From positions 1 to 42,106 of IMG/VR virus record IMGVR_UViG_3300017987_000161: 42,106 bases of DNA; one strand, written 5' to 3'. This DNA is from a virus. Positions within the stretch are counted from its first letter, which is position 1. Every line of letters begins with the position of its first letter. This document shows positions 1,702 to 42,106 of this stretch, in pieces. The translations under genes and the position numbers were made by a program. The notes below the pieces were generated by a model. It saw only the letters and a list, made by a program, of their open reading frames with translations. It had not been told where the DNA came from and ran no database searches.

Positions 1702-1744
1702 ATGGGTAGAAGTACGGAGTAAGTGTTTATACAAAGGTGAAAAA

Positions 1745-2025: not shown

Positions 2026-2037
2026 TTGGGGGGCAAA

Positions 2038-2262: not shown

Positions 2263-2292
2263 TATATAAAAATATATATAGGAAGATATATA

Positions 2293-3599: not shown

Positions 3600-3601
3600 A
3601 T

Positions 3602-3889
3602 ATGAAGAGAATTAAGAACAGGAATAAGACTGGTATTTGGATGAGGATTTCAGGCTTCTTTGAACATGAGCCAGAAGATATAATTTATAGACAAAAGGCA
3701 GTGAAGGAGGTCCAGCGACAAAAGAAGGATAGGAAGAGACAGGAACAAAAGCTTATTAATATGATAAGAGAGGCTCACAGATTAATTCCAACTGGCAAAA
3801 AGAAGGACCCAAAATGGCTTAGAAATCAACGACAAATCCAACGTGGTTTTGATATTGCTGACAAATGGAGTAAAAAAGATGACAAATAG
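3602..3889 (+). CDS. small basic hypothetical protein
   Basis: This 95-residue protein starts MKRIKNRNKTGIWMR, is very rich in Lys, Arg and Gln and looks mostly helical (KAVKEVQRQKKDRKRQEQKL), with no membrane segment or metal motif. It starts two bases after the pentapeptide gene stops, with GAGGAAG upstream, and overlaps the next gene by 11 bases. The composition suggests a nucleic-acid or acidic-protein partner; the function is unknown. Confidence 0.55.
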   Translation: MKRIKNRNKTGIWMRISGFFEHEPEDIIYRQKAVKEVQRQKKDRKRQEQKLINMIREAHRLIPTGKKKDPKWLRNQRQIQRGFDIADKWSKKDDK

Positions 3890-4175
3890 ATATGAAATTC
3901 GTAAACATATAGGCTGTGGTGGAGACTTGACCTTTGAAAAAGAGGTAGTCGAAAACAAGATTTTAAACAAAAGAGCAGTAGAGAAATTTGGGGCAAAAGC
4001 TAAGATAAAACAGGTTACAAAAAACATGTTTAGATGCAACAAATGTAGGGAGTTGGTGAATGTAGTTACATGCCCATCGTGGGAACAGTTTGTGCTTTGG
4101 GGCAAAATCAGAGTCAGCAAAAAACAATACTGGGAAATCAAAGAAAACAGGAAAAATGGAGCATTGAGGTATTAA
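3879..4175 (+). CDS. putative zinc-binding hypothetical protein
   Basis: This 98-residue protein starts MTNRYEIRKHIGCGGDL. A Cys near residue 13 and the later FRCNKC knuckle look like two halves of a treble-clef or zinc-ribbon site separated by a helix (EKFGAKAKIKQVTKN). A further Cys follows in TCPSW. ATG 3879 has GGAG eight bases upstream and overlaps the preceding stop. An upstream in-frame ATG at 3843 would overlap that gene much further. Function unknown. Confidence 0.55.
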   Translation: MTNRYEIRKHIGCGGDLTFEKEVVENKILNKRAVEKFGAKAKIKQVTKNMFRCNKCRELVNVVTCPSWEQFVLWGKIRVSKKQYWEIKENRKNGALRY

Positions 4176-4197
4176 TTATATAATAGGTGATAATGTT

Positions 4198-4449
4198 ATG
4201 AAAAAAGGTTTAAATACTATGACAGACAAAGTTACAACTGGAAAGAGGATTACTTGCTGGTTTTGTCACATTAATGGTCGAAATATATTGGACAAAGATG
4301 GTAAATGTAAACGCTGTGGGACCAACTTAAAGAAATATCCAATCAGAGACAAACATCCTTATCCCAATATGAAAAATTTAGATAGAGAGGTCCTGGGTCA
4401 TCGGGACAAATTTTATATCCCAGATGATAGCGACCAGAATAATTGGTGA
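4198..4449 (+). CDS. zinc-ribbon protein
   Basis: This 83-residue protein starts MKKGLNTMTDKVTTGKRITCWFCHING. CWFC and CKRC knuckles 15 residues apart form a probable zinc ribbon, followed by a polar tail with several Pro, His and Asp. AGGTGAT stands about nine bases before the first ATG; ATG 4219 is an alternative. The end overlaps the next gene's upstream region. GACAAA words occur repeatedly in it. Function unknown. Confidence 0.6.
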   Translation: MKKGLNTMTDKVTTGKRITCWFCHINGRNILDKDGKCKRCGTNLKKYPIRDKHPYPNMKNLDREVLGHRDKFYIPDDSDQNNW

Positions 4450-4453
4450 AAAT

Positions 4454-4780
4454 ATGAATCCACAAGAATTTAATAAGGTGCTCAAAACTCGGATAGAGCT
4501 GACAAAAAAAGTTCTAGCATATAAATCAGGTGAATATTCCACAAAAACCGACAAACTGCATAACTTTAAAAGAGCAGGACAGATGCAAAATTGTAGCTCA
4601 GCAAAAGCCTTAATAGGAATGTGGACCAAGCACATCGTTTCAATACTAGATATAGTAGATAACATAGAAAAAGATGACAGCTACCACCCATCCCCAGCCC
4701 TGTTAGAAGAAAAAATTGGGGATGCTATAAATTATTTAATATTGCTTGAAGCATTAATAAAGGAGAGATATGATAAATGA
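4454..4780 (+). CDS. MazG/DUF1599-like all-alpha protein
   Basis: This 108-residue, fully helical protein starts MNPQEFNKVLKTRIELTKK. The pattern SGEYSTKTDKLHNFKRAG, then a Lys-His helix (MWTKHIVSILDIVD) and EEKIGDAINYLILLEALIKER resembles the DUF1599/nucleotide-modification-associated group related to MazG NTP pyrophosphatases. In those the EExxD helix binds Mg and the protein may hydrolyse or handle nucleotides. GGTGA four to five bases before ATG 4454 decides the start. It overlaps the next gene by ATGA. The family match is from memory of the pattern and is moderate. Confidence 0.5.
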   Translation: MNPQEFNKVLKTRIELTKKVLAYKSGEYSTKTDKLHNFKRAGQMQNCSSAKALIGMWTKHIVSILDIVDNIEKDDSYHPSPALLEEKIGDAINYLILLEALIKERYDK

Positions 4781-4935
4781 AATATTCTAAAAGTCTACAA
4801 ATATATAGATTAAGAATTTCAGTAACCGACAAACAGAGCTTTGAAGAGTGCAATAAGGAAATTCTGGCTAGGCTGGAAAATCATCCAGAGCTGGACCAGG
4901 AAGAGGTCGACAAAATAAAGAGGGAGATATTATGA
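4777..4935 (+). CDS. small hypothetical protein, first of a tandem paralogous pair
   Basis: This 52-residue protein starts MKYSKSLQIYRLRISV. Its second half QSFEECNKEILARLENHPEL aligns with SFNDCDKEIKKELDKHPAV in the next gene: same Ser-Phe-x-x-Cys, Lys-Glu-Ile and His-Pro positions. The gene overlaps both neighbours by ATGA and has AGGAGA upstream. A short beta segment followed by an amphipathic helix is predicted. A CCGACAAA word encodes Thr-Asp-Lys. Function unknown. Confidence 0.6.
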   Translation: MKYSKSLQIYRLRISVTDKQSFEECNKEILARLENHPELDQEEVDKIKREIL

Positions 4936-5102
4936 AGTATAATAAAGAGATTGTGTTAGCCCTGGCTCCATATAAGACGGTTAAACTTGGGGTATCTGAA
5001 GCTGATAGTTTCAATGATTGTGACAAAGAGATAAAAAAGGAGCTCGACAAACACCCAGCAGTTAAAGAGCTGAATGCAGAGGACATAAAAAAGGTGCTGT
5101 AA
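4932..5102 (+). CDS. small hypothetical protein, second of a tandem paralogous pair
   Basis: This 56-residue protein starts MKYNKEIVLALAPYKTVKL. It shares the first four-residue pattern MKY(S/N)K and the C-terminal helix SFNDCDKEIKKELDKHPAV with the gene just before it, so the two most likely arose by duplication and diverged. The ATG overlaps the previous stop (ATGA) and GGGAG lies upstream. Its stop overlaps the next ATG (TAATG). Function unknown. Confidence 0.6.
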   Translation: MKYNKEIVLALAPYKTVKLGVSEADSFNDCDKEIKKELDKHPAVKELNAEDIKKVL

Positions 5103-5281
5103 TGAAAGAAGAGGATTTAAAGAAAACAAATAAGGCTTTTGATTCCATGATTAGAGATTTTATACTGTCTGCCAATAAATGCAAACCTGTTATGCCCCTT
5201 GTGGCTCAAAGTTTAGAGCTTACAGTAGAACTAATAAAAACCTATAAAGAGGCTTTCAATGGAATCAATAAAAAAAGCTAA
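5102..5281 (+). CDS. small helical hypothetical protein
   Basis: This 59-residue protein starts MKEEDLKKTNKAFDSMIRDF and looks wholly helical (VAQSLELTVELIKTYKEAFNG). The start shares one base with the previous stop (TAATG) and its end overlaps the nucleotidyltransferase-like gene by 23 bases, so all three are likely translated together. No metal motif or membrane segment. Function unknown. Confidence 0.55.
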   Translation: MKEEDLKKTNKAFDSMIRDFILSANKCKPVMPLVAQSLELTVELIKTYKEAFNGINKKS

Positions 5282-5705
5282 TGCAGTATTATTAATAAAT
5301 AGTCAGCCCCCACATTTAGGAGAATTGTTACAGTTTATACAACAATTGAATAAGTATGAGTTTATATATGTATGTATTACAGGTAATATTGCAGTAATTG
5401 CTCTGGACCACGTACTAGCTATTTGGAGAAATATATTAGCCCCATATAGCAACAAAAGTGCAGTAATGTTTTTTCAAAAAGATATATATAAATCTAGCAG
5501 AGAAGATTTCCCTGGAGCATTTAAAGATTGTGTGTGGTTAACTGCTGATAGGGCAACATATGTACATCTTTCTACATTACAAGTAAATGTGGAGCTTATT
5601 CCAAGAGCTATGGGGTATCGAGGCACCTTCTTACGAGTAGCTTTCCGACAAAGTAAAGCTTTGGATTATTTAGAAGCAAATTATGGGGGTCAAATAAAGA
5701 GGTAA
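5259..5705 (+). CDS. degenerate nucleotidyltransferase-like protein (HxGH superfamily)
   Basis: This 148-residue protein starts MESIKKANAVLLINSQPPHLGELLQF. NSQPPHLGELL sits where cytidylyl/adenylyltransferases of the NMNAT/PPAT superfamily carry GRFQPxHxGH. The first His is kept but the second is replaced by Glu. KYEFIYVCITGN fits the second Rossmann strand, and GYRGTFLR sits where a family ISSTxIR motif is expected, again altered. It may act on a different substrate or be non-catalytic. GAGG lies ten bases before the ATG. It lies just upstream of the OB-fold and polymerase genes. Confidence 0.45.
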   Translation: MESIKKANAVLLINSQPPHLGELLQFIQQLNKYEFIYVCITGNIAVIALDHVLAIWRNILAPYSNKSAVMFFQKDIYKSSREDFPGAFKDCVWLTADRATYVHLSTLQVNVELIPRAMGYRGTFLRVAFRQSKALDYLEANYGGQIKR

Positions 5706-5758
5706 TAAAATGGAAATGAATTTATTAATAATGAAAGAAATTTAAGAGGTAGAAAAAT

Positions 5759-6127
5759 ATGCCAACATTTGAAACAAATACGACAGAAGATGAGGATGTT
5801 TTGTTTGCGACCTTTGGTAAACTAAAAGCAGGTCAGGACAAAAGTAAATCTGTCCTCATAAAAGAGGGAGAGAGTTTAATAGGAGTCGTTATAGATGTTC
5901 AAGATTCCCCGACATATAAAAAAGTCTATCGTCTTAAAGTAAAAGGCGAGGACAAACCAGTAGTTGTACTAGGTAAGACTGACCTTAACAACAAGATGGG
6001 CTATGGTACCAAGAAGGCTCAAAAAGTTGTTCAGGTTAATGACCTTATACAGATTACTTATCTCGGACAAAAGAAAACTCAAAAAGGTCGCCCATTCTAT
6101 AGCTTTACTGTCGGTATTGCTAAATAG
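5759..6127 (+). CDS. OB-fold protein, candidate single-stranded DNA-binding protein
   Basis: This 122-residue protein starts MPTFETNTTEDEDVLFATFG. After an acidic lead, residues 33-118 form five or six predicted strands (LIGVVIDVQDSP, VYRLKVKGE, PVVVLGKTDL, LIQITYLGQ, FYSFTVGIA) with exposed Lys and Tyr, as in an OB fold. An acidic tip, the small size and the position directly before the DNA polymerase support a role in replication. No family was confirmed. AGAGGT lies about ten bases before the ATG. A helicase loader or polymerase clamp-like factor is an alternative. Confidence 0.45.
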   Translation: MPTFETNTTEDEDVLFATFGKLKAGQDKSKSVLIKEGESLIGVVIDVQDSPTYKKVYRLKVKGEDKPVVVLGKTDLNNKMGYGTKKAQKVVQVNDLIQITYLGQKKTQKGRPFYSFTVGIAK

Positions 6128-6134
6128 GGGCAAT

Positions 6135-6201
6135 AGAGTCCGACACTCTCCTAAAAAGGCACCCCGAATTTCATCAACAGTTCGACTCTGTTAGGGGTGC
6201 C
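6135..6201 (+). ncRNA. tRNA-like minihelix (acceptor plus T-arm) with adjacent hairpin
   Basis: GGCACCCC (6158-6165) pairs perfectly with GGGGTGCC (6194-6201). Inside, AACAG (6176-6180) and CTGTT (6188-6192) close a 7-base loop TTCGACT, which matches the tRNA T-loop consensus. Only about ten bases separate the outer strand from this arm, so D and anticodon arms are absent. A second hairpin AGAGT-CCGAC-ACTCT lies just upstream (6135-6149). It could be a tRNA remnant, an attachment-site relic, a tRNA mimic or a strong mRNA 3-prime structure after the OB-fold gene. The pairing is seen directly; the interpretation is open. Confidence 0.4.
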
Positions 6202-6225
6202 ATCTAATTTACTTAGGTGAAGATT

Positions 6226-6306
6226 ATGAATAATTTAAGAAGCCAGATAATCGAGCACCAATTTATCTGTTATCGAGAATTTTGGCACAGGCATCATGCA
6301 ATGTAA
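6226..6306 (+). CDS. possible 26-residue peptide between OB-fold gene and polymerase
   Basis: ATG at 6226 has AGGTGA seven bases upstream and opens a frame of 26 codons beginning MNNLRSQIIEHQFICYREFW, ending in TAA. The ribosome binding site is one of the better ones in the arm, but the peptide resembles nothing I know. It could be a leader peptide, a short functional peptide or chance. Confidence 0.3.
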   Translation: MNNLRSQIIEHQFICYREFWHRHHAM

Positions 6307-6315
6307 TCGCATTTG

Positions 6316-6355
6316 TATGCACCATAATTAACAACTTTGTTAACTTTGGTGTATG
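6316..6355. promoter_or_regulatory. nested inverted repeat upstream of the polymerase
   Basis: TATGCACCA (6316-6324) pairs with TGGTGTATG (6347-6355) through nine pairs including two G-T, and nested inside, TTAACAA (6328-6334) pairs exactly with TTGTTAA (6337-6343). It may be a hairpin in the leader RNA, a terminator for upstream transcription or a protein-binding site. Its right arm overlaps the left arm of the next inverted repeat, so the two structures may exclude each other. Confidence 0.45.
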
Positions 6356-6407
6356 TAACTAAGATTTAAATAGTAGAAGAATTAGTTACATAGCAAAGGT
6401 TTAAATA
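6352..6407 (+). promoter_or_regulatory. putative polymerase promoter with operator-like inverted repeat around a TATA-like box
   Basis: TATGTAACTAA (6352-6362) and TTAGTTACATA (6382-6392) are perfect 11-bp inverted copies. Between them lies TTTAAATA (6365-6372), the form of an archaeal TATA box; a second TTTAAATA at 6400-6407 is preceded by AAAGG, as in a BRE. A protein bound to the repeat would cover the box, a usual design for repression. The AACTAA/TTAGTT core with a 19-20 base gap also occurs at 224-255. If the host is bacterial the TATA reading fails but the operator reading remains possible. Confidence 0.45.
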
Positions 6408-6424: not shown

Positions 6425-9082
6425 ATGAAATTACCAAAAAAAGGAGCCCTTGTAGCAATTGACACTGAAACTAAATCACTGACCGACAAAACGATGGTCG
6501 GGTTTAGTGTTGCGTTTGGAAACAGGTCAGAGTATTTTCCTGTCAGGGACAAAATACTACCTAATATTTCTATAGATAATGCTAAAGAAATACTGTCCCA
6601 TGTATTACAAAATTGTCATGTAGTGTTCCATAATTCCAGTTTTGATTTGCCAGTTATACATAAATTTGGTGTCGAGATTCCCGACAAACTGGATATAGAT
6701 GACACTGTGATTATGGCAAATCTAGTAAACGAGAATATGCTACATGGGTTAAAAAAATTAACAAAAAAGTATTTCGATTATCAAATGACAGAGTTGAAAG
6801 AGCTTACAGGTAGTGGGAAAAACAGAAAATCTTTTGATGAAGTGGAAGATATTAAAAAAATCAATTATGCCAAGGATGATGCAAAGTATACGTTAAAACT
6901 TTATTATAAGCTTAAATCTTTACTTGACAAAGATGAGGCATCTAAAAAAGTTTATGAAGAGATTGAACGCCCCTTGTTGCAAATTATTGCTTTGATGCAC
7001 ATACATGGAGTAAGAGTAAATGTAGAGAAAGTTCTTGAGATAGGTAAGATGTGCTTTGATAAAATGAATGGGGCTGAAGAAAAATTACGCATACTTATGG
7101 GACAAAAGATTAATTTTAATAGCACCAAGCAACTTAGGGAATATTTTATAGGAGAGAGAAGGCTCCCAGTATTAAAGAAAACACCAAAAGGAGAGCCCTC
7201 AGTAGATAAAGAAGTATTAGAGCAATATGCAGAAATGGATGGGAGTGCAAAATTATTATTAGAATATAGAAAATATAGTAAGATTTATTCAACTTTTATT
7301 CCAGCCATGACCCCGACAAATTGGGATGAAAAGACCATGACTGGCTTAATTTATACATCATTTAATCAAGCTGGGACAGTAAGTGGGAGATTTTCAAGCA
7401 GTAGACCAAATATGCAGAATATTCCACGTAAGGATGAGATAGGACTTAGAGCAGTAGTAATTCCAGATGAGGGAGATATTCTTATTGGTGCTGATTATTC
7501 ACAAATAGAACTTCGTGTACTTGCTCATTTTTCTCAGGACCAAAATCTTTTATATGCTTATAATAACAAAAAAGATATTCACCAACAAACAGCAGATGCA
7601 CTTGGACTTGATAGATATGATGCTAAATGTTTTCACCCATTTACAGAAGTGTTAACTCCTAATGGATGGAAATGTATGTGCCATTTAAATACAGAGGATA
7701 AAATTCTACAAGCGTACCCATACTCTAATTTTGATGTACGTTTTGAATGGGTAAAACCTAAACTTAAACTAAAAAAACACCCAAGTAAAACATTAATTCA
7801 TTTAAAGAATGAGGGCGTTGATTTACGTGTAACACCTGAACATAGGATGCTTTATTACTCTAATTATGGTTATCCTCATATCACTAAACCAAAATGTTTT
7901 AATTCAGTAAGATATTGGATGAATAGTGGTATATTACATAATTGTATAAGTTGTGATGAGAATTTGCTAAGATTAGCAATAGCAACTCAAGGAGATGGCT
8001 CTTATAAAAGTTTTGGAATACAATTTGGATTTAGCAAAAAAAGAAAGGTTAACAGATTAAAGAAACTATTGAAAAATTTTGATGGTTTATATACTATTAC
8101 TATAGATAAGAATAAAATTGTGTGGTTTAATCTATGGAAAGAGTTGGCTGATAAAATTAAACCTTATCTAGATAATAAAAAACTTTCATGGAGCATGTTA
8201 AATTATTCAATAAAATATAAGTACATTATTTTAGAAGAGGCAAAATATTGGGATAGCCACTGTAGGAAAAATTGGCAAATGTTTAGGTATAGCTCTAAAG
8301 AAGAACAAAATGTAGATGTGCTACAAGCTCTTGCTGCTACAAGTAATTTTAAAACTAGGAAAGTTAGAAAAAAGGATGGCATGTTTGATTTGACAATTAG
8401 AAAAAATAATAAATCCAGAGGAGGGAATATTAAAATAACAAATGAAAGATATACAAAAAAAGTCGCTTTTTTATCAGTTCCTTCAACTTATGTTTTAGTT
8501 AGAGATGGGGGTATACCTATTATTACTGGGCAAACTATTAACTTTGGTTTGGTTTATGGAATGGGAGCAAAAACTCTAGGTAAAAAAATTAATAAATCTT
8601 ATGATGATGCTCAGAAATATATTGATGCTTATTTCAGAACTTATCCAATGGTGCAATCATTTTGGAAAAAAGCAGAGAGGGATTTCCGTACACTTGGGTA
8701 CGTACAAACTTTTTTTGGCAGAAAAAGACGAAGAACACCATACTTTTTCACTAAGGATGATTATGAGCAGGGTGGAGAAGTTAGAAGTGCAATCAATTCA
8801 GTTATTCAAGGTAGTGCAGCAGATTTAATGAAGATAGCTATGAAAAATATGGCACCAAAATTAAAACCACTTGGAGCTAAACTCATATTAACAGTCCACG
8901 ATGAAATACTTGTTAGTTGCCCTATAAAAAATGCTGTGAAAGCTAAAAAAATCATTGAGTCAGAGATGATTAAAGCTGGGAAGGATTTATCTGTTTTAAT
9001 TGAAGTTGATTGTAAATTTGGCAGAACTTGGGCTGAGGCTCATGGAGAAGGGATTAAATTGGAGGAGATGAAATGCAACTAA
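6425..9082 (+). CDS. polA: family A DNA polymerase with 3-5 exonuclease, interrupted by an intein
   Basis: This 885-residue precursor replicates the viral genome. Residues 9-160 are a DEDDy proofreading exonuclease (D13 and E15 in IDTETKSL, FD at 73-74, YxxxD at 148-152). The palm motif DYSQIELR begins at D357, the O-helix reads RYDAK (397-401) then TINFGLVYG (from 704), and motif C HDE is at 825-827. Residues 402-703 are an intein placed between the essential O-helix Lys and the following Thr. No 5-3 nuclease domain is present; the spliced enzyme would be about 583 residues. The O-helix Phe, not Tyr, predicts ddNTP discrimination. AGAGG lies upstream of ATG 6425. Confidence 0.95.
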   Translation: MKLPKKGALVAIDTETKSLTDKTMVGFSVAFGNRSEYFPVRDKILPNISIDNAKEILSHVLQNCHVVFHNSSFDLPVIHKFGVEIPDKLDIDDTVIMANLVNENMLHGLKKLTKKYFDYQMTELKELTGSGKNRKSFDEVEDIKKINYAKDDAKYTLKLYYKLKSLLDKDEASKKVYEEIERPLLQIIALMHIHGVRVNVEKVLEIGKMCFDKMNGAEEKLRILMGQKINFNSTKQLREYFIGERRLPVLKKTPKGEPSVDKEVLEQYAEMDGSAKLLLEYRKYSKIYSTFIPAMTPTNWDEKTMTGLIYTSFNQAGTVSGRFSSSRPNMQNIPRKDEIGLRAVVIPDEGDILIGADYSQIELRVLAHFSQDQNLLYAYNNKKDIHQQTADALGLDRYDAKCFHPFTEVLTPNGWKCMCHLNTEDKILQAYPYSNFDVRFEWVKPKLKLKKHPSKTLIHLKNEGVDLRVTPEHRMLYYSNYGYPHITKPKCFNSVRYWMNSGILHNCISCDENLLRLAIATQGDGSYKSFGIQFGFSKKRKVNRLKKLLKNFDGLYTITIDKNKIVWFNLWKELADKIKPYLDNKKLSWSMLNYSIKYKYIILEEAKYWDSHCRKNWQMFRYSSKEEQNVDVLQALAATSNFKTRKVRKKDGMFDLTIRKNNKSRGGNIKITNERYTKKVAFLSVPSTYVLVRDGGIPIITGQTINFGLVYGMGAKTLGKKINKSYDDAQKYIDAYFRTYPMVQSFWKKAERDFRTLGYVQTFFGRKRRRTPYFFTKDDYEQGGEVRSAINSVIQGSAADLMKIAMKNMAPKLKPLGAKLILTVHDEILVSCPIKNAVKAKKIIESEMIKAGKDLSVLIEVDCKFGRTWAEAHGEGIKLEEMKCN
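7628..8533 (+). other. intein with LAGLIDADG-like endonuclease, inside the DNA polymerase
   Basis: This 302-residue insertion starts with Cys (CFHPFTEVLTPNGWK, splicing block A). Block B is VTPEHRM. A degenerate LAGLIDADG motif is seen in LLRLAIATQGDGSYKSF, followed by a basic helix, and the insertion ends VPSTYVLVRDGGIPIITGQ before extein Thr. The last residue is Gln and the penultimate Gly, not the common His-Asn, a variant reported for some inteins. It cuts the nucleotide-binding O-helix next to its catalytic Lys, so the polymerase should be inactive until splicing. Whether the endonuclease is active cannot be told; only one clear LAGLIDADG-type motif is seen. Confidence 0.88.
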
Positions 9083-10396: not shown

Positions 10397-10507
10397 ATGA
10401 ACTGCCCCAAATGTGGTAAATTTATGAGCAAAGCAGCTTGTGGTGAGTTTGTTTGCAAATGTGGAGCTCATTTAGTAAGGTCAGGAAATAAGTTATATGA
10501 GGATTAA
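10397..10507 (+). CDS. tiny zinc-ribbon protein
   Basis: This 36-residue protein starts MNCPKCGKFMSKAACGEFVC. CPKC at residues 3-6 and CKC near residue 21 form a minimal zinc ribbon with almost nothing else. The end overlaps the start region of LicD, whose ribosome binding site GAGGAT is inside this gene. Small size limits confidence, but the double CPKCG-type knuckle is unlikely by chance. Confidence 0.55.
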   Translation: MNCPKCGKFMSKAACGEFVCKCGAHLVRSGNKLYED

Positions 10508-10508
10508 A

Positions 10509-11099
10509 ATGGTAGAGCATAAATGGATAGAAGAATCATTAAAAGCATTTGCTAGGGTAATGAAGAAACATAAGATACCATTTTGGTTAGAATATGGTAC
10601 TCAACTTGGAGCAGTTAGAGAGGGCAGAATTATTCCCTATGATTATGATGGAGATATAGGCGTTATGCTCAGCTCTGTCAATAAAATGAAGGATTTAAAA
10701 GAGGATTTTGAAGCTGAAGAAATAATGATGGCATATCAACCAAATCATATTTTTATTAATTATAAAGTTAATGATAGGGAATGGCTGGCAACTGTAGATG
10801 TTTATACTTTTACTGTAAAAAAGCATAAAGGAAAAAAGTGGCTGGTAAGAATTGAGAATGGGAAGGAGTTTGATGTAAGGTCCCCATTTGAGTATTATGA
10901 AAAATTAAAAGCAATATATTTTTTAGGTGAAATATTTTTTATTCCTTGGATGGCTAGAGAAGCCCTTGAATTTGCATATGGAAAGGAATGGAAAACTCCT
11001 ATTAAGAAGCCAGGTGTTCAAATAATGATTGGTAAACCAACCGATAAGCAGCTTAATCAAATGGGTAGAACACACCATAAGAAATTGGAGGACCTATGA
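10509..11099 (+). CDS. LicD family protein (phosphocholine/phospho-sugar transferase type)
   Basis: This 196-residue protein starts MVEHKWIEESLKAFARVM. LEYGTQLGAVREGRIIPYD followed by YDGDIGV is the defining LicD signature: a polymerase-beta-like nucleotidyltransferase fold with Gly, Arg and a cluster of metal-binding Asp. Known relatives move phosphocholine or other phospho-groups onto sugars of cell-surface glycans. GAGGATTAAA before ATG 10509 matches the capsid gene's leader; an in-frame ATG at 10497 is an alternative. ATGA overlap with the cytidylyltransferase suggests that enzyme supplies its CDP-activated donor (inference). Confidence 0.82.
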   Translation: MVEHKWIEESLKAFARVMKKHKIPFWLEYGTQLGAVREGRIIPYDYDGDIGVMLSSVNKMKDLKEDFEAEEIMMAYQPNHIFINYKVNDREWLATVDVYTFTVKKHKGKKWLVRIENGKEFDVRSPFEYYEKLKAIYFLGEIFFIPWMAREALEFAYGKEWKTPIKKPGVQIMIGKPTDKQLNQMGRTHHKKLEDL

Positions 11100-11488
11100 T
11101 AAGAGGAATTATATTTGGATGTTGGGATTTATTTCATGTTGGTCATCTTAGAGCACTTCTTGCAGCAAGTAAACAATGTGATGTTTTATATATCGGGATT
11201 TTTTCAGATGAGGTTATAAAAGACTATAAAGGTCATTTTCCTATTATAAGTTATTTAGATAGATATTTAATTATTGCTAATTTATCATTACATTCAAGAA
11301 TTATTCCGTTTGGTATGAATCATAGGAGTAAAATCAGTCTTTCTGAATATCATAAAGTATTTGTATCTGATAAGTTAAGAAGGTATGCTATAATTCCTGA
11401 TGATTATGGGGGAGAAATAGTACAGTTACCTTATGATAAATCAACATCTACAACAAAAATAAAGGAGAAGATTAAAAATGAATCCTAG
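11096..11488 (+). CDS. cytidylyltransferase (glycerol-3-phosphate/phosphocholine type)
   Basis: This 130-residue protein starts MIRGIIFGCWDLFHVGHLRAL. HVGH is the catalytic HxGH motif, followed by Rossmann strand CDVLYIGIFSD, the DRYLIIANL segment and TSTTKIKEKI, the ISTTxI motif of TagD/GCT/CCT enzymes. These join CTP to glycerol phosphate, phosphocholine, phosphoethanolamine or a similar acid, releasing pyrophosphate. It overlaps LicD by ATGA, so both products are made in step. The typical family length (about 130 residues) is kept and all motifs are intact, so it should be active. The exact substrate is unknown. Confidence 0.88.
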   Translation: MIRGIIFGCWDLFHVGHLRALLAASKQCDVLYIGIFSDEVIKDYKGHFPIISYLDRYLIIANLSLHSRIIPFGMNHRSKISLSEYHKVFVSDKLRRYAIIPDDYGGEIVQLPYDKSTSTTKIKEKIKNES

Positions 11489-33672: not shown

Positions 33673-34146
33673 TTGACAGCAGCTCAAGAAAAAAGATGGA
33701 AAGCAGAGGCAGAAATTATTGCTTCACTTAAACGTATGCCATCATGTCGTGAAATGCAGAAATTTTTGAAGGATAAATATGGCATTGTAGCTAATCATAA
33801 TACTATCAACGCAGATTTAAAAAAAGATTTAGAATCATTAACTGAGTCAGAGTATCAAAATCAAAAAGCCGGTATTTTACAAATGGTTGATGATGAATTA
33901 GAAATAGCTCATAATATAGCAACAAGTGACCCAGATAATGCTGTTAAACTTAAAGCTATGAATACAGTATCTAAACTTTCTAAGACCAAATCTGATATTT
34001 TAGTAAAATTTAGGCAAGCAAGAGCTCAATTGAATAAAAAAGAAAAGCCTGAAATAAATATATTTATAGGAGAACCGAAAAAGATTGATATGGAAAAATT
34101 TAAAAAACTTGAGGGAGTAGTAGATAATGAAGAAGAAGGTAATTGA
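33673..34146 (+). CDS. terS: terminase small subunit
   Basis: This 157-residue protein starts at TTG 33673 (MTAAQEKRWKAEAEIIAS), seven bases after GGAG. Residues 10-60 form a helix-turn-helix (ASLKRMPSCREMQKFLKDKY, then HNTINADLKKD). ATSDPDNAVKLKAMNTVSKL with a following helix is the oligomerisation segment seen in phage small terminases. It recognises the packaging site and loads the large subunit. Transcription away from terL is unusual; most phages keep both in one operon. Confidence 0.7.
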   Translation: MTAAQEKRWKAEAEIIASLKRMPSCREMQKFLKDKYGIVANHNTINADLKKDLESLTESEYQNQKAGILQMVDDELEIAHNIATSDPDNAVKLKAMNTVSKLSKTKSDILVKFRQARAQLNKKEKPEINIFIGEPKKIDMEKFKKLEGVVDNEEEGN

Positions 34147-35040: not shown

Positions 35041-35163
35041 ATGAAAGACGAAGCTGAAGAGTTCGATGAAAAACCTATAAAAAAGAAAGATGGAAGGATT
35101 GACTTTAAAAGAGAACATAAAGCAATCCTTAAAGAATTAAAGAGGTTAGGTTTACGTGATTGA
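35041..35163 (+). CDS. small charged protein before primase-helicase
   Basis: This 40-residue protein starts MKDEAEEFDEKPIKKKDGRI and is a charged, helical peptide (HKAILKELKRLGLRD). It starts seven bases after the exonuclease stop and overlaps the GTG start of the primase gene by eight bases, whose ribosome binding site it contains, so translation is probably coupled. It may be a short adaptor; nothing identifies it. Confidence 0.5.
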   Translation: MKDEAEEFDEKPIKKKDGRIDFKREHKAILKELKRLGLRD

Positions 35164-37366
35164 TTTACCTAAACAGTTAAAAACTCCAAAACTTCGATTT
35201 GTTAAGATTAGAGAAAAACAGAAACGCCCATTTGAAGAGGGGTGGCAGGAATACAATAATTATAAGTATAATGAAAAGGAGTTTCAAAAATATCTTAAAC
35301 AATCTAATAGTTATGGAGTTTTATGTATTAATGGTCTTGCAATATTAGATGTAGAAGTAGAAAACAAGGAATTAATTAATAAAATATTTATGGAACTCCC
35401 TAAAACATTCACTGTTAAAAGTGGAAGAGGTGGCTATCATTTTTATTACTGGATTCCTGATTTAGACAAAAAAATTGTTTTAACTAAAAACGGAAAACAT
35501 TATGGAGAAGTACAAGCTGGACAAAAAGCTCAATGTGTAGGACCTGGAAGTTTGCACCCTAATGGTAAGACTTATAATATAGATAATAACACAGAAATTA
35601 AAGAAATATCATTTTCTATATTAGATAGAGTAATCAAAGACTATTATGAAAAGAAAGATAAAACTAAATTTAAAACTATTAATACTGGTTTACAGTGGGA
35701 TATATCAAAATTAATTGAGCCTATAAATAAAATGCTGAGGCAACAAGGGAGAGTTCCTTTAAAAACTAAAGATGATGTTAAGTATAGTGGGTCTCATCCA
35801 GTGGAAGCACATGGAAGTTCAACTGGACATAACTTTGAGATTGATGTCGATAAGAATACATGGTATTGTTTTAGATGTGAACGTGGTGGAGATGCTTTGT
35901 CGCTAATCGCTATGCTGGAAGGACTTACTACTGAAAAAGGAGAATGTATAGGAAAGAATTATTTTAGAAAACACAAAGAGCAATTTTTACAGGCTAAAAA
36001 AATAGGCATCAAAAGTTATCAATTTCCAGATGATGGTAGAACTCCAAATAAGATAACTATATTTAGAAATAGTAAAATCGGTAAAAATCAAGCTTTTGAT
36101 AATGATGCAGTAGATAAATATTTAAAAGCCGAAGGGCACATCTATATAACTATAAGAGATGAAACTGGAAGACAACCACATATTTACTTTTATCAAGATG
36201 GGTATTACAAATTAAATGGGGAGGATATCATAGTTAATTTAGTTCAAAAACTTTTCAAAGATTACAATATACCATGGCAGAGAAAACATAAGACAGAGTT
36301 TATTGATTATCTAAAAACTAAGAATATTGTAGAAAGAGATGAATTTATAGCTCCAAGGTATTTAATTAATTTGGAAAATGGGGTATATAATTTAAAAACA
36401 CATAGATTGATACCACATAATCCTAAATACAATTTCTTATATAAAATACCATGGAAATATAATAATAAAAGTAAGAAGTTAAAGGCACCGATACAAAAAT
36501 TCTTTGAGACTACATTTGGTGGAAATAAGGACTACATTAAATTTACTCAAGAATTATTTGGGTATTGCTTATATTCTGATTACAATATTCATGGGCTTTT
36601 CTATTTGTATGGTACTGGTGGAAACGGAAAAAGTGTATGGTTAAATTTACTTGAAGCTATGCTTGGACAAAAGAATGTAAGAAATAAATCAATATCTTCT
36701 TTAATGCAAAATAGATTTACAGCAGCTTTATTATATGGAAAACTACTCAACACTTGTGGCGAATTAACTCCTACAGTAATGAGGAAAACTGATATGCTTA
36801 AAAGATTAACAGCAGGCGACAAGATAGAGGCAGAGTTTAAAGGGAAAGATGGTTTTGATTTCAAGAACATAGCTAAGATAATAACTGCTTGTAATACAAT
36901 TCCTCCATGTAATGATAGAACAGATGGATGGTATGAACGTCAATACATCATTCCATTTGTTAGAAAATTCAGAGATACTAAACAAGAAGATGTAGATTTG
37001 ATTGAGAAATTAGTTACTAAAGAAAATATGGAAAGTTTACTCTATTGGTCTTTACAAGGACTTAAGAGACTATTAAAAAATAAACGATTTACATATGGAG
37101 ATAAGAAAGATAAGTATTTAATGTATCAAGGTAATACTAAATATTTTGTAAAAAGACATTATGAATATGGAGAAGTTAGCGATTATGTTAAAGTAGAAGA
37201 CATAAGAGCAGACTATAAGAAGTGGTGCAAGAAAAATGATATTCCTGAAGACAGTGAAGAATCATTGTCACTTGCATTTAGATATTGGGGATTACCTGAT
37301 GTAGTTCGTGTAGAAGAAAAAGGAAAAAAGATTTATGTCAGAAACCAACTTAAGAAGGTGAGTTAA
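35156..37366 (+). CDS. PrimPol-zinc finger-SF3 helicase (primase-helicase)
   Basis: This 736-residue protein starts at GTG 35156 with GAGGTT upstream. Residues 1-150 are an archaeo-eukaryotic primase/polymerase domain (D65, E67 in LDVEVEN; SGRGGYHFYY with H95; VGPGSLHPNG). Residues 200-255 hold a CHC2-like zinc finger (SHPxxAHG, C238, C241). A D5_N-like region leads to an SF3 helicase with Walker A GTGGNGKS (486-493), Walker B-like LNTCGELT and sensor KIITACNTIPP. It unwinds the origin and makes primers for the family A polymerase. The zinc finger between primase and helicase is a useful variation on the D5-type layout. Confidence 0.9.
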   Translation: MIDLPKQLKTPKLRFVKIREKQKRPFEEGWQEYNNYKYNEKEFQKYLKQSNSYGVLCINGLAILDVEVENKELINKIFMELPKTFTVKSGRGGYHFYYWIPDLDKKIVLTKNGKHYGEVQAGQKAQCVGPGSLHPNGKTYNIDNNTEIKEISFSILDRVIKDYYEKKDKTKFKTINTGLQWDISKLIEPINKMLRQQGRVPLKTKDDVKYSGSHPVEAHGSSTGHNFEIDVDKNTWYCFRCERGGDALSLIAMLEGLTTEKGECIGKNYFRKHKEQFLQAKKIGIKSYQFPDDGRTPNKITIFRNSKIGKNQAFDNDAVDKYLKAEGHIYITIRDETGRQPHIYFYQDGYYKLNGEDIIVNLVQKLFKDYNIPWQRKHKTEFIDYLKTKNIVERDEFIAPRYLINLENGVYNLKTHRLIPHNPKYNFLYKIPWKYNNKSKKLKAPIQKFFETTFGGNKDYIKFTQELFGYCLYSDYNIHGLFYLYGTGGNGKSVWLNLLEAMLGQKNVRNKSISSLMQNRFTAALLYGKLLNTCGELTPTVMRKTDMLKRLTAGDKIEAEFKGKDGFDFKNIAKIITACNTIPPCNDRTDGWYERQYIIPFVRKFRDTKQEDVDLIEKLVTKENMESLLYWSLQGLKRLLKNKRFTYGDKKDKYLMYQGNTKYFVKRHYEYGEVSDYVKVEDIRADYKKWCKKNDIPEDSEESLSLAFRYWGLPDVVRVEEKGKKIYVRNQLKKVS

Positions 37367-37639
37367 ATGGAAAAAATAAAAGAGGACCAAATAATGATAT
37401 ATGAAATTAAAACTTGTGGGTTATCAGCATATACTGTAAATGCAACTATTGATTCTTATATGTGTTTTTCTGGAATTGACAGCTTTATATATGACCCAAA
37501 GTGGAAAAGAGTCACATTTCAAGGAAACTTCTTAGATACAAAAAAGATAGAAGATATGTTAAAAAAAATCGAGAAAACTTTAATAGAATTATGGGAGTTA
37601 AAAAATAAGTTAAGTCTTCTAAATATAAAAATAGATTAA
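37367..37639 (+). CDS. hypothetical protein
   Basis: This 90-residue protein starts MEKIKEDQIMIYEIKTCGLS, with beta-type N-terminal strands (YTVNATIDSYMCF, VTFQGNF) and a C-terminal helix (KKIEDMLKKIEKTLIEL). GGTGAG before ATG 37367 repeats in front of the next gene. GAGG before in-frame ATG 37394 makes a 81-residue product the alternative. Function unknown. Confidence 0.55.
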   Translation: MEKIKEDQIMIYEIKTCGLSAYTVNATIDSYMCFSGIDSFIYDPKWKRVTFQGNFLDTKKIEDMLKKIEKTLIELWELKNKLSLLNIKID

Positions 37640-37649
37640 GGTGAGTTAA

Positions 37650-37928
37650 ATGGGAAAATGTTCCGTTTGTGGAAAAAAAATAGAATATAATCAGTTCAAG
37701 TGGTATCGTGGTAAGATTCAATGTTATGATTGCTACAAGACACGACTTGAACGTAAAAAAGCTAAAAAAGAAGCTGCTGAGAAAACAGTAGAAGAGGACA
37801 AAAACGATAAGGAGTTAAAAAATATAGGTGTAACAGTGAATGTAACTGATGATTTTAACCCTTATAAAGAGCCAAAAGAAAAAGCTGAAGAACTAGCTGC
37901 TTATGAAGATAAAGAACAAGAGGAATAA
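37650..37928 (+). CDS. zinc-ribbon protein with acidic tail
   Basis: This 92-residue protein starts MGKCSVCGKKIEYNQFKWYR. CSVC and CYDC knuckles form a zinc ribbon in the first 30 residues; a Lys/Glu-rich helix and a very acidic end follow. The start leader AAGGTGAGTTAAATGG is the same as for the gene before, suggesting duplicated start regions. Function unknown; the acidic end could mimic nucleic acid. Confidence 0.6.
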   Translation: MGKCSVCGKKIEYNQFKWYRGKIQCYDCYKTRLERKKAKKEAAEKTVEEDKNDKELKNIGVTVNVTDDFNPYKEPKEKAEELAAYEDKEQEE

Positions 37929-38062: not shown

Positions 38063-38256
38063 GAGAAATAGAATTTTACGGTGTATATGTTTTAAATGAA
38101 ACAGAGCAATTGCTTATATTCATTACTACTTTTGACAGAAAAGACTATGGACTAGACCTTATCCTTAATACTGCTTTATCACCTGAAGTACAAGACTTGC
38201 AAATAGCTAAAACTGTAAATAAATTACAAAGTATGACTAGAAAAGATGCCATGTAA
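38059..38256 (+). CDS. hypothetical protein
   Basis: This 65-residue protein starts MREIEFYGVYVLNETEQLLI, with two beta strands and a long C-terminal helix (SPEVQDLQIAKTVNKLQSMT). ATGA overlap with the gene before and 11 bases of overlap with the next indicate coupled translation. No family recognised. Confidence 0.5.
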   Translation: MREIEFYGVYVLNETEQLLIFITTFDRKDYGLDLILNTALSPEVQDLQIAKTVNKLQSMTRKDAM

Positions 38257-38380
38257 TTGTCCGTTGTGTGGAAGAGAAATGATTTGGTTTGGGTCTACCC
38301 TCTTCTGCATCAAGTGTGATTGGGTTGTTATTAGAGAATTAGCTCAAGATAAGAATGACCGTAGACAAGGATGGTATTAA
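38246..38380 (+). CDS. tiny zinc-ribbon protein
   Basis: This 44-residue protein starts MPCNCPLCGREMIWFGSTLF. CPLC and CIKC knuckles form a ribbon, followed by WVVIRELAQDKNDRRQGWY. The CPLCGREMIWxGSTLxCIKC layout is that of short phage zinc ribbons. It overlaps the preceding gene by 11 bases. Function unknown. Confidence 0.6.
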   Translation: MPCNCPLCGREMIWFGSTLFCIKCDWVVIRELAQDKNDRRQGWY

Positions 38381-38460: not shown

Positions 38461-38606
38461 TGAAAAAAGTTAGATTAAGCAACAATCAAATTGGAATCAG
38501 TCTGTTGGCTACTCATATACATAATCAAATTAAAAAAGAACTAGCATTGAGTTATCCAGAAATAGCCAGCCTTACATGGGAGATTACTCTTAAGGTGAAA
38601 GAATGA
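38460..38606 (+). CDS. small hypothetical protein
   Basis: This 48-residue protein starts MKKVRLSNNQIGISLLATHI, with a helix and strand pattern (IKKELALSYPEIASLTWEIT). It overlaps both neighbours (TAATG and ATGA), so it is probably co-translated with the sulfotransferase. No family recognised. Confidence 0.45.
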   Translation: MKKVRLSNNQIGISLLATHIHNQIKKELALSYPEIASLTWEITLKVKE

Positions 38607-39253
38607 GTAATATGTATTTCCATATAGGACTGCACAAAACAGGAAGCACATTCTTGCAGCGTAATGTATTCCCTTATATTAAAGGGATAGACAATTACTT
38701 TGCTACAAATATAGGTAAGTTTAAATTTGGAAACACATATTCAGGTAAAACTTTAGTCAGCAAGGAAAACTTAAGTGGGATGCCTCATAAATCAAATGAT
38801 ATAAATGTTAGAGCACAACGAATGTATAGAATTAAAATGTATTATCCTGATGCTAATATAATAGTAATGATTAGAGAAAAGGACTGGAAAGAATCTTTGT
38901 ACTCTACTTACGTTAAAGGCGGTGGTACTCTAACTTATGATGAATGGGAAAATCAAATATTTAATTACGATTATGCAGATTTCTATTACTACATAAAAGC
39001 TTTAAAGGCTAATTTTAACAGGGTTCTAGTATTATCATATGAAGACTTTAAAATAGATAATGATTATATTATAAGAAAAATATGCGATTTCATGGGAGTA
39101 GAATTTCCACATAATTATAATCGCACCAAGATTGGTCTAAGTTTATCAAATAACAGATTAAAAGTCGTCAGGACATTAAATCATTTACCAATTAAGAGAA
39201 GTAATTTAAATAGAATGTTTGATAAATATATTAGATATAAAAGAGGGCAATAA
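38603..39253 (+). CDS. PAPS-dependent sulfotransferase
   Basis: This 216-residue protein starts MSNMYFHIGLHKTGSTFLQR. HIGLHKTGSTFLQ is the 5-prime phosphosulfate-binding loop. IIVMIREKDWKESLYSTYVKGGG fits the 3-prime phosphate motif (Arg and Ser), and VLVLSYEDFKIDNDYIIRKICDFMGV is the usual C-terminal segment. It would move a sulfate from PAPS to a sugar, lipid or protein, perhaps on the host surface or virion. AAGGTGAAAGA precedes the ATG. A viral sulfotransferase without PAPS synthesis genes implies the host makes PAPS. Confidence 0.8.
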   Translation: MSNMYFHIGLHKTGSTFLQRNVFPYIKGIDNYFATNIGKFKFGNTYSGKTLVSKENLSGMPHKSNDINVRAQRMYRIKMYYPDANIIVMIREKDWKESLYSTYVKGGGTLTYDEWENQIFNYDYADFYYYIKALKANFNRVLVLSYEDFKIDNDYIIRKICDFMGVEFPHNYNRTKIGLSLSNNRLKVVRTLNHLPIKRSNLNRMFDKYIRYKRGQ

Positions 39254-40259: not shown

Positions 40260-40336
40260 GTAGAACTGACATAAAATTAAACATTCTTATTCTAACATGT
40301 CTCATAATAGTAGTATATCTCATTTCTGAAACATGA
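40256..40336 (+). CDS. tiny membrane peptide
   Basis: This 26-residue frame starts MSRTDIKLNILILTCLIIVV and is one hydrophobic helix with a polar N-terminus, ending LISET. ATGA overlap with the zinc gene supports translation. It could be a small membrane toxin, an anchor or chance; no other evidence. Confidence 0.35.
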   Translation: MSRTDIKLNILILTCLIIVVYLISET

Positions 40337-40375
40337 TAGGAGCCAAGTAGGCTTAAAAAGGTAGTATTTGATTAA

Positions 40376-40468
40376 TGGATTTAAAAGAGCTCAGAGACCC
40401 GTTTCTGGGCTTTTATGAGGATTTGAGAGTATGCCAATTTATGTATATAGATGTGACAATTGCTTGAA
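40376..40468 (+). CDS. possible 30-residue peptide
   Basis: The frame opens at ATG 40376 (MDLKELRDPFLGFYEDLRVC) after AAAAAGGTAG and contains the ribosome binding site of the zinc-ribbon gene at 40431, which it overlaps. It may be a leader peptide controlling that gene. Support is weak. Confidence 0.25.
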
Positions 40469-40556
40469 TAAAGTAAAATCAAGCAAGTGCTGTAAGAAAA
40501 AATGCCCCAAGTGTGGGGAAAGGAAGCTGGTTAATACTTTGGTGATTCAAGACTAG
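40431..40556 (+). CDS. FmdB-like tiny zinc ribbon
   Basis: This 41-residue protein starts MPIYVYRCDNCLNKVKSSKC. The opening MPIYxYRCxxC is that of FmdB/regulatory CxxC proteins and CPKCGE supplies the second knuckle. FmdB is a putative regulator of formamide use; here only the ribbon is present. GAGGATT precedes the ATG. The stop TAG is part of the AGGAGGCTGAATAATG leader of the next gene. Confidence 0.6.
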   Translation: MPIYVYRCDNCLNKVKSSKCCKKKCPKCGERKLVNTLVIQD

Positions 40557-40567
40557 GAGGCTGAATA

Positions 40568-40852
40568 ATGAAATTGAAAGTTGGTAATCAAGAATTTTCA
40601 GGGAACCATGTTGCTATAGTCAGTGTATCATGGACAGAGGTACATAGAAATACTTGTAGCTATTGTGGTCATACTAAAATAATATATGATTATAAAGTAA
40701 CAGTAAGAACTTATAAAGAGGTAGTTGAACATGGTGAAATGGGTCTTCCTTTCTGGAGATTAAGACACAGTGATACAGAGGTCAAAGTTTCACAAGAAGA
40801 GGGAGAAAGAATACTACAAGGATTTTGTGCAGGAATCAAGGGGGCTGAATAA
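40568..40852 (+). CDS. hypothetical protein, first with duplicated start leader
   Basis: This 94-residue protein starts MKLKVGNQEFSGNHVAIVSV, is beta-rich in its first two thirds (VAIVSVSWTEV, KIIYDYKVTVRTYK) with a CSYC knuckle, and ends with a helix (EEGERILQGFCAGIKGAE). It has the AGGAGGCTGAATAATG leader, repeated before four more genes downstream. Its last codons (Gly-Ala-Glu-stop) are made by a copy of the same leader. Function unknown. Confidence 0.55.
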   Translation: MKLKVGNQEFSGNHVAIVSVSWTEVHRNTCSYCGHTKIIYDYKVTVRTYKEVVEHGEMGLPFWRLRHSDTEVKVSQEEGERILQGFCAGIKGAE

Positions 40853-40971
40853 TGGAATGTCCTAAATGTGGAAAACAGATGACCCAATTTCCTTTATACA
40901 GTAACATTGATGGAGCAAAACCTTTCGAATATTTCTGGTTGTGTGAAGATTGTTATGTTATCAGCATTTAG
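40852..40971 (+). CDS. tiny zinc-ribbon protein
   Basis: This 39-residue protein starts MECPKCGKQMTQFPLYSNID. CPKC and CEDC knuckles flank a short loop with FEYFWL. It begins with the GGGGGCTGAATAATG version of the shared leader and overlaps the previous gene by one base. A further small reading frame at 41008 (10 codons) is too short to call. Confidence 0.6.
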   Translation: MECPKCGKQMTQFPLYSNIDGAKPFEYFWLCEDCYVISI

Positions 40972-41041
40972 CGTATTCTGTTTATGGAAACTTGATTAGA
41001 GATAAACATGACTGAGCTACAAAAATTAGAGGTATTTTAAG

Positions 41042-41236
41042 ATGTATTTAGATAAAGTAAAAGTAATAGTAGATGATGAAAATGGAGAAGGCTGTAAATT
41101 TACTTGGATAGACGGAGAATTACTCTTAGAACAAATACTCTACAAAATGTATGAGTGGGAAGACAGCTTAATAACATCTGCAATACAAAGTGCAGAAGAT
41201 AGTTTTCAAGAGTATAGAAAAAAGAAGGCTAAATAA
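41042..41236 (+). CDS. small acidic hypothetical protein
   Basis: This 64-residue protein starts MYLDKVKVIVDDENGEGCKF, has two strands then an acidic helix (EQILYKMYEWEDSLITSAIQ), and ends KKAK. AGAGGTATTTT lies before the ATG. Its last codons and stop (AAGAAGGCTAAATAATG) resemble the shared leader and start the next gene. No family recognised. Confidence 0.5.
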   Translation: MYLDKVKVIVDDENGEGCKFTWIDGELLLEQILYKMYEWEDSLITSAIQSAEDSFQEYRKKKAK

Positions 41237-41403
41237 TGAAAAAGAAAATAAAGCCAGAATGGCACCAAGGCCATGTAGCACGTTGTCCAGATTGTGCGGG
41301 ACTCTTGCTGCAATCAGATTTTTACCATGCAGAGAAATGTAGTAAATGTGGTAAGCTATGGCTAACAATAATTAAAAAGATGGAGATTAAAGATTTAGAG
41401 TAG
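41236..41403 (+). CDS. small zinc-ribbon protein
   Basis: This 55-residue protein starts MKKKIKPEWHQGHVARCPDC. CPDC and CSKC knuckles are separated by about 18 residues including His (YHAEKCSKCGKLW). It overlaps the previous stop by one base with a leader variant. Its stop TAG lies just before the next copy of the leader. Function unknown. Confidence 0.6.
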   Translation: MKKKIKPEWHQGHVARCPDCAGLLLQSDFYHAEKCSKCGKLWLTIIKKMEIKDLE

Positions 41404-41423
41404 GAAACCAAGGAGGCTGAATA

Positions 41424-41675
41424 ATGGGAAAAGGATTTGTAAAATTTGAAAAAGATGAAAACGAGCCATATGAATCTGTATATGATGTCAAGAATAAATC
41501 AGGATGGAAACTTGGTAAAATATTTTTTAAGCCAGAATGGAAAAAGCACATATTTGAACCATACCAAGATACATATTTTGATACTGTATGTTTGAAGCAC
41601 ATTTCAGAGTTCTTAATTAAACTTGATGCTAAATATAAAGATGGATTTGTAGGAACCAAGGAGGCTGAATTATGA
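41424..41675 (+). CDS. hypothetical protein with duplicated start leader
   Basis: This 83-residue protein starts MGKGFVKFEKDENEPYESVY, with several beta strands and many aromatic residues (KIFFKPEWKKHIFEPYQDTY) and a helix (VCLKHISEFLIKLDAKYKDG). Leader AGGAGGCTGAATAATG is at 41411-41426. Its end (KEAEL) is encoded by another copy of the same leader, which starts the last gene. No family recognised. Confidence 0.5.
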   Translation: MGKGFVKFEKDENEPYESVYDVKNKSGWKLGKIFFKPEWKKHIFEPYQDTYFDTVCLKHISEFLIKLDAKYKDGFVGTKEAEL

Positions 41676-41794
41676 AACGAGGATGTTGTTGTAGTTTAAA
41701 ATATACACCATCCAGCCACCTTGGATTTTTCGTCTTAATTTGTGTCCTTGAAGCCTTTTTTTACTGTCTTTTTATACTTGCCATGTTTCATTAA
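41672..41794 (+). CDS. small Cys-rich membrane protein, last gene of the arm
   Basis: This 40-residue protein starts MKRGCCCSLKYTPSSHLGFF, with a CCC cluster near the N-terminus, and then has one hydrophobic span (GFFVLICVLEAFFYCLFILAMF). The leader AGGAGGCTGAATTATG is at 41659-41674. The CCC and membrane span could indicate lipid modification or a metal site; no family recognised. Confidence 0.4.
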   Translation: MKRGCCCSLKYTPSSHLGFFVLICVLEAFFYCLFILAMFH

Positions 41795-42106
41795 AAAATT
41801 ATACACCAAGGCTGATTCAGACAAAAAATTATACACCTAAAAGTAATCAAATGGTCAACCCCTTTTCTTTTTTATGCGGGTTTTTTTATAAATCTAAATA
41901 AATAATAAAGAATATATTTTAATTGTTTTATATTAATCATTTTTTTAAAAAGTTATCAATAAAAATCCTAATTGCAACAAGGGGTTTTATCGCCTCATTT
42001 TTATTTATCCCTAAATATATTAATTACTAGATTATAATCGAGCCCCTTATTTTTATTTGCTTAGAAATATATAAATGTTATTATATACGAAGGGGAATAG
42101 AGATAC
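41795..42106. other. gene-free AT-rich right end
   Basis: No gene is seen. AAAAAATTATACACC occurs twice at 41793-41807 and 41823-41837, enclosing a decayed copy of the shared leader (ACCAAGGCTGATTCAG). Near 41857-41887, AACCC and GGGTT can pair ahead of a run of T, a possible terminator for the right arm. The remainder is A and T with scattered AGGGG/CCCCT words (41979, 42042, 42091), and could hold an origin or a chromosome or contig end. Confidence 0.45.

Follow-up and report, generated by a model that had tools for sequence, protein, structure and literature searches.

Short leader/tail sequences at the borders of small early genes, here called seams, are probably sites at which a virus from IMG/VR and its relatives, uncultured tailed viruses of probably archaeal hosts, gain, lose and move genes by short-homology recombination, a reading to which we assign a probability of about two in three. 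A seam is about 12-28 nt long; it is made up of a gene's final codons, a Shine-Dalgarno site and a TAATG or TAAATG stop-start overlap, and it sometimes extends into the initial codons of the gene that follows. Seams are repeated in letters specific to each genome and flank genes without recognisable kinship. Doubling of the leader, turnover of the genes beside it and exchange of gene tails were all observed.

The window, the whole stretch of 42,106 nt that was analysed, is one virus record encoding a terminase, a portal, a tape measure protein, a family A DNA polymerase and a primase-helicase. It was compared with 11 relatives (12 viruses in total), which were found in IMG/VR via the capsid, exonuclease and primase. 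The closest, G001, has a primase 58% identical to that of the window, and even the closest virus pairs are well diverged, with no single event caught between near-identical genomes. Genes were called automatically throughout, and kinship among very short proteins is easily missed. No DNA relatives of the region were found in the phage collection at E 1e-5, and the matches appearing at E 10 were at chance level. The best primase matches among genome-bin contigs were three contigs labelled Candidatus Thermoplasmatota, which gave no matches to the capsid, terminase or portal; going by the primase gene alone, the hosts are probably archaea.

Several other features of the genome were recorded. The PolA match of the family A DNA polymerase (6425-9082) is split by an inserted domain (CFHPFTEVLTPNGW...) located before QTINFGLVYG, an apparent intein. 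Surface sugar modification is suggested by 10497-11485, where a LicD family protein precedes one resembling a cytidylyltransferase. A pentapeptide-repeat protein (ADLRGANL type) is encoded at 2709-3599, and a similar one lies downstream of the primase operon in G001; the two ends of the window are therefore probably contiguous, as in a circularly permuted genome.

The repeated leader of the early gene array

A 16-mer, AGGAGGCTGAATAATG, was found five times within 1.1 kb of the window with at most 3 mismatches (at 40555, 40839, 41223, 41411 and 41659), on the + strand only. Shuffled sequences gave a mean of 0.45 matches per whole window, and five or more copies in 0 of 100 cases. In the frame of the preceding gene, the fuller unit GTAGGAACCAAGGAGGCTGAATAATG reads VGTKEAE, after which comes a TAA stop sharing letters with the next ATG; it thus combines a gene tail (VGTKEAE*) with a Shine-Dalgarno site and a TAATG stop-start overlap. 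This unit was matched with 1 mismatch out of 26 at 41649, 3 at 40829 and 4 at 41401, the copies at 40545 and 41213 being partial, and none of 60 simulated windows held a match with 5 mismatches or fewer. The features of the array are as follows:

40336-40361, + strand: possible decayed seam copy (ATAGGAGCCAAGTAGGCTTAAAAAGG), non-coding, 6/26 mismatches
40431-40556, + strand: upstream landmark of the slot, 41-aa Cys-rich gene with homologues in G001 and G012
40545-40570, + strand: seam copy 1 (ATTCAAGACTAGGAGGCTGAATAATG), overlapping and following the TAG stop of 40431-40556, in frame; starts gene 40568
40568-40852, + strand: cassette gene, 94 aa, no homologue detected in the relatives; good coding signal
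40829-40854, + strand: seam copy 2 (GCAGGAATCAAGGGGGCTGAATAATG), tail AGIKGAE* of 40568-40852; starts gene 40852
40852-40971, + strand: cassette gene, 39 aa, zinc-knuckle type; weak coding signal
41042-41236, + strand: mobile gene, 64 aa, with a homologue between primase and gene B in G012; good coding signal
41213-41238, + strand: seam copy 3 (TATAGAAAAAAGAAGGCTAAATAATG), tail KKKAK* of 41042-41236
41236-41403, + strand: cassette gene, 55 aa, zinc-ribbon type; fair coding signal
41401-41426, + strand: seam copy 4 (TAGGAAACCAAGGAGGCTGAATAATG), opening with the TAG of the preceding gene, in frame (ETKEAE*); starts gene 41424
41424-41675, + strand: cassette gene, 83 aa, without clear homologue; good coding signal
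41649-41674, + strand: seam copy 5 (GTAGGAACCAAGGAGGCTGAATTATG), closest to the core, tail VGTKEAEL* of 41424-41675; starts gene 41672
41672-41794, + strand: candidate cassette ORF, 40 aa; coding signal absent
41825-41966, no strand assigned: downstream landmark, conserved non-coding operon end, 78% DNA identity to G001, parts matching G012

A preliminary description of this DNA had placed the leader before five successive genes. The five copies stand, far above chance, but the series is interrupted by gene 41042-41236, located between copies 2 and 3 with a different leader (TTAGAGGTATTTTAAG); the seam is carried by five of the six array genes, not by five consecutive ones. The same description held that the leader often encodes the last codons of the preceding gene, which is the case at 40839, 41223 and 41659, whereas the other two copies lie just past a TAG stop, though still in frame. 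At copies 2, 3 and 5 there is no gap between the genes, which overlap or abut; at copies 1 and 4 a spacer of 11-20 nt separates them. A decayed copy had also been proposed at 41805-41820 (ACCAAGGCTGATTCAG); it needs a 3-nt gap, was missed by the ungapped scan and was not counted. The stretch at 40336-40361 is a better candidate for a degenerate copy, albeit suggestive only, as two such 6-mismatch matches appeared in the 60 simulated windows. The 41805-41820 stretch falls between two copies of another sequence, AAAAAATTATACACC, present twice at 41798-41837 with a spacing of about 28 bases, immediately ahead of the conserved operon end.

The 94-aa gene 40568-40852 had no relative in IMG/VR. A resemblance of the 83-aa gene to an insert of G004 (E about 6e-4 over 40 residues) was too weak and was set aside.

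Folding provided no indication of a structural element common to the seams. Six of seven seams folded no better than shuffles, the exception being copy 3 (z -3.2), whose stem is not found in the others, and neither a dyad nor a stable stem-loop common to the seams was detected. A cassette built on a promoter and a stem-loop was rejected on these grounds. An intergenic promoter does not fit either, because the genes overlap, abut or sit 11-20 nt apart.

The array slot was then compared in G001 and G012. Between the two landmarks (40431-40556 and about 41825 onwards), gene content is wholly different in the three viruses, with six genes in the window, about three in G001 and about seven in G012, and no homologues were found among the slot genes of the three. 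The slot of G001 contains two copies of the window seam, with 2 and 4 mismatches of 26. One copy lies between an 87-aa gene ending in VGTKEAK and a GIY-YIG gene, and the other follows a dead ORF ending in VGTKEAI. Hence, the same seam is present in a relative with other genes between its copies, and the slot does not keep the same genes in the same order in all relatives. In G012, turnover of the slot is complete, yet no repeated seam is visible. The GIY-YIG gene of G001 (5119-5598, oriented) carries a C-terminal part 52% identical to the product of the virus's own gene 33673-34146, located near the terminase, and this fusion is a possible home-made homing endonuclease.

Part of the likeness between seams must be due to selection for the Shine-Dalgarno site and for stop-start coupling. 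Convergent selection as a full explanation would hold that a Shine-Dalgarno site inside the preceding codons, at a fixed distance from TAATG, leaves few sequences that fit, the copies having no common history. The core does hold AGGAGG or GGTGA at a spacing right for a Shine-Dalgarno role, and the 17-mer AAGGAGGCTGAATAATG is generic by itself: an IMG/VR scan matched it in more than 100 stretches, with a single copy in each one listed, so that it occurs singly in many unrelated viruses. A scan with GGAACCAARGAGGCT gave 117 stretches, and among the 80 listed, two copies were found only in G001 and L284; the latter was rejected as a seam carrier, since its pair is an unrelated coding repeat of a long protein. 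Against convergence, identity extends beyond the Shine-Dalgarno site and the stop-start overlap, reaching upstream (GTAGGAACCA) and into codons 2-6. From -12 to +18, start 41236 of the window and start 5119 of G001 are identical at 25/30 positions, even though the first gene encodes a zinc-ribbon protein and the second a non-homologous GIY-YIG protein. Among 6360 start comparisons, only orthologous starts exceeded 25/30, and the next non-homologous pairs scored 22.

The junction between primase and gene B

A second seam was located upstream of the array, where the preliminary description had reported a similar leader near 37353 and 37637. AAGGTGAGTTAAATGG is indeed present at 37355 and 37638, 20/21 identical. 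The corresponding features are:

35156-37366, + strand: primase-helicase (Prim-Pol N-terminus, D5_N, DUF5906), left landmark
37355-37370, + strand: second seam, copy a (AAGGTGAGTTAAATGG), last codons of the primase (KKVS*) and start of insert gene A
37367-37639, + strand: insert gene A, 90 aa, absent from G001, G005, G006, V157 and V161
37638-37653, + strand: second seam, copy b (AAGGTGAGTTAAATGG), start of gene B
37650-37928, + strand: gene B (MGKCxxC), right landmark, in 12/12 viruses compared

An insert between primase and gene B is present in half of the viruses (window, G012, G003, G004, V162 and V164). The primase is directly followed by B, with a single leader, in G001, G005, G006, V157 and V161, and G002 has a single leader and no insert called in a gap of 157 nt. 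The inserts consist of gene A in the window, gene F13 in G012, an 81-aa gene in G004, a 64-aa gene in V164 and two genes each in G003 and V162, and no recognisable kinship was found among those of the six viruses. Close relatives differ in occupancy (G004 is filled, V161 and G005 are empty) or in content (V162 and V164, a close pair, are both filled with different genes).

The leader is doubled in five of the six filled junctions (window, G012, G003, G004 and V164), in letters peculiar to each genome (GGTGAGTTAAATGG, GGTGAATTAA, GGTGAAATAATG, AGGTATAAAAATGGGA and GTGAGATAATGGGA). The likeness in G003 is between the leaders of the second inserted gene and B, and in V162 inserts are present and no leader repeat was seen. 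The leader in front of B is broadly alike across all relatives, as convergence would predict, but leaders match better within a genome than across genomes. Comparing each insert leader with the B leader of its own genome gave a sum of 77, versus 45 when genomes were permuted, and own-genome matching was the best of all permutations of the six genomes (p = 1/720 = 0.0014, the floor of this test). The turnover of genes at the repeats that the preliminary description led one to look for is therefore found here, in junctions that are empty or differently filled and whose leader is doubled in most filled cases. Its central proposal, that the repeat is a recombination seam where small genes are swapped in, is supported by turnover both in the array slot and at this junction.

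Two inserts have relatives at other places. The F13 gene of G012 is a homologue of window gene 41042-41236, with 34% identity over the full length. In the window, this gene ends in KKKAK* at the AAGAAGGCTAAATAATG seam; in G012, it ends in KKVN* at AAAAAGGTGAATTAA, and the G012 primase also ends in KKVN*. The two sequences suggest that F13 has moved, the seam belonging to the place and the local tail being worn at each. Homologues of the G003 insert F8 were found in G001, G012 and G004, there in a different early array.

Tandem duplication of a gene with its leader, one copy then diverging beyond likeness without import or movement, would also double a leader. Two observations fit duplication: gene B is a distant zinc-ribbon homologue of its neighbour C, and in G001 the end of the 87-aa gene recurs past the seam in the form of a dead ORF (80% over 15 residues). 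Nevertheless, the inserts of G012 and G003 are homologues of genes elsewhere in the relatives and not of B, and the proteins lack likeness while their leaders remain identical, so that we regard duplication as an improbable source of the general pattern.

Further along the early region, a few genes past 38246-38380, the window encodes a sulfotransferase (38603-39253); roughly the corresponding place is occupied in G001 (L145, oriented 2973-3899), G003 and G012 by a protein resembling cysteine synthase (SIGNTPLVE...).

Leader sharing in other regions and viruses

In the early regions of all 12 viruses taken together, 225 pairs of neighbours were compared; a leader run of 11 nt or more was common to both genes in 5 pairs, versus 1.0 expected (p = 0.002). 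With the addition of L211, a distant primase relative from a Thermoplasmatota bin, leader likeness was found to drop with distance along the genome. L211 itself contains a 20-nt seam repeat that places the tail VEEREK* on two unlike genes. No excess of leader sharing between neighbours was found in the genes of the late structural operon, adjacency statistics showed nothing in window positions 1-6400, and T4 and psiM2 revealed no leader sharing between neighbours. A control set of 67 AT-rich viral loci, drawn by a short pattern only, gave 7 of 1071 pairs versus 5.1 expected, none with a run of at least 13 nt. Convergent selection would not predict that neighbours match better than distant genes of the same genome, nor that late genes and random viral loci lack the effect to that degree; together with the extended identity and the own-genome matching described above, this makes convergence an unlikely explanation, though the least unlikely of the alternatives considered.

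Proposed mechanism and relation to known systems

We infer the recombination step and its direction from the patterns described, as well as the role of the seam as a cause, with recombination occurring there, and not as a mere trace. DNA ends might anneal, or a polymerase might switch template, at the short homology offered by the leaders; alternatively, a circle of leader plus gene might integrate. Either route would yield a leader-gene-leader arrangement, in which the entering gene would have its terminal codons replaced by those of the local seam and would acquire a working ribosome-binding site and stop-start coupling. Because the unit brings both elements, the new gene would be translated at once within the operon and the reading of its neighbours would be kept. 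The doubled leader would also permit clean loss as the reverse step. Early small-gene operons would thereby diversify by seams, and late structural operons would not. Two points count against the seam model: the G012 slot and V162 indicate that seam repeats are either unnecessary for turnover or quickly decaying, and stretches of 12-28 nt are short substrates for ordinary homologous recombination.

The reaction might instead depend on a dedicated enzyme, a GIY-YIG homing endonuclease or an integron-like recombinase acting at the seams. Genes of the GIY-YIG family are found in or near the region in G001, G012, V161 and V164; the domain is present in genes of G001, G012 and V164, directly after a seam in G001, where the C-terminal part of the gene resembles the virus's own 33673-34146. 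However, no GIY-YIG gene is detectable in the window, the seams share neither a dyad nor a stable stem-loop, and their letters vary by genome, unlike an enzyme site. Enzyme-driven cassettes are accordingly considered very improbable. The window proteins that were searched included no annealase, RecA-like recombinase or integrase that could be recognised; a PD-(D/E)XK exonuclease came closest. Integron cassettes, defined by a palindromic attC and an integrase, also differ from the seams, which have no common dyad and no integrase among those proteins.

Boundary sequences have long been proposed for mosaic genomes, yet they are absent at most mosaic joints (PMC3029335). In the viruses studied here, the same short border sequence was found in related genomes with different genes between. 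The nearest precedent is gene 68 of mycobacteriophage Island3: its C-terminal 18 residues are a copy of the end of the upstream gene, and a direct repeat of about 50 bp flanks the insert (PMC3029335). Both systems have an insert that copies the upstream tail, and in Island3 too recombination at short boundaries was proposed (PMC3029335). Island3 is one case, with about 50 bp and 18 residues, whereas the present phenomenon recurs at one junction in several lineages with 12-28 nt, is built around the ribosome-binding site and includes homologues of one gene at two different seams.

Regulatory border sequences provide a second comparison. T4-type PeSLs (Arbiol 2010; Comeau 2014), as cited in PMC3950731 and PMC4503421, consist of an intergenic promoter plus a stem-loop and were proposed to act in gene shuffling, and a border motif with a promoter and stem-loop was proposed to do so in the archaeal virus HGTV-1 (PMC3950731). 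Like PeSLs and the HGTV-1 motif, seams are regulatory sequences at borders among many small genes. In contrast with them, seams have no common stable stem-loop and scarcely room for a promoter, overlap coding sequence and concern translation. The Start-Associated Sequences (SAS) of cluster K mycobacteriophages have one 13-bp consensus, GGGATAGGAGCCC, lie mostly in gaps of more than 50 bp, and were suggested by their authors as possible recombination targets (PMC3203893). Seams resemble SAS in being asymmetric repeats at the position of the ribosome-binding site, always pointing the same way and standing in front of non-structural genes from different families. They differ in their core, which is GTAGGAACCAAGGAGGCTGAATAATG and not GGGATAGGAGCCC, and most viruses use their own letters; moreover, genes at seams overlap or nearly abut, without gaps of more than 50 bp, and the unit encodes the tail of the upstream gene. 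We conclude that seams are conserved boundary sequences of a new type, distinct from T4 PeSLs and mycobacteriophage SAS. A more far-reaching version is offered tentatively, as it is rather doubtful: seams may be standing, self-copying landing sites, where captured genes take on the local tail and start codons and become interchangeable, translation-ready cassettes without a site-specific enzyme or a promoter.

How phage-like viruses acquire small genes exactly at gene borders is an old question. The junction between primase and gene B presents both empty and filled states, with the boundary doubled in five of six filled ones, in viruses of little-known, probably archaeal hosts, and the question becomes testable through a comparison of leader likeness between filled and empty sites. 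Leader likeness may also be of use in spotting recently gained genes from a single genome.
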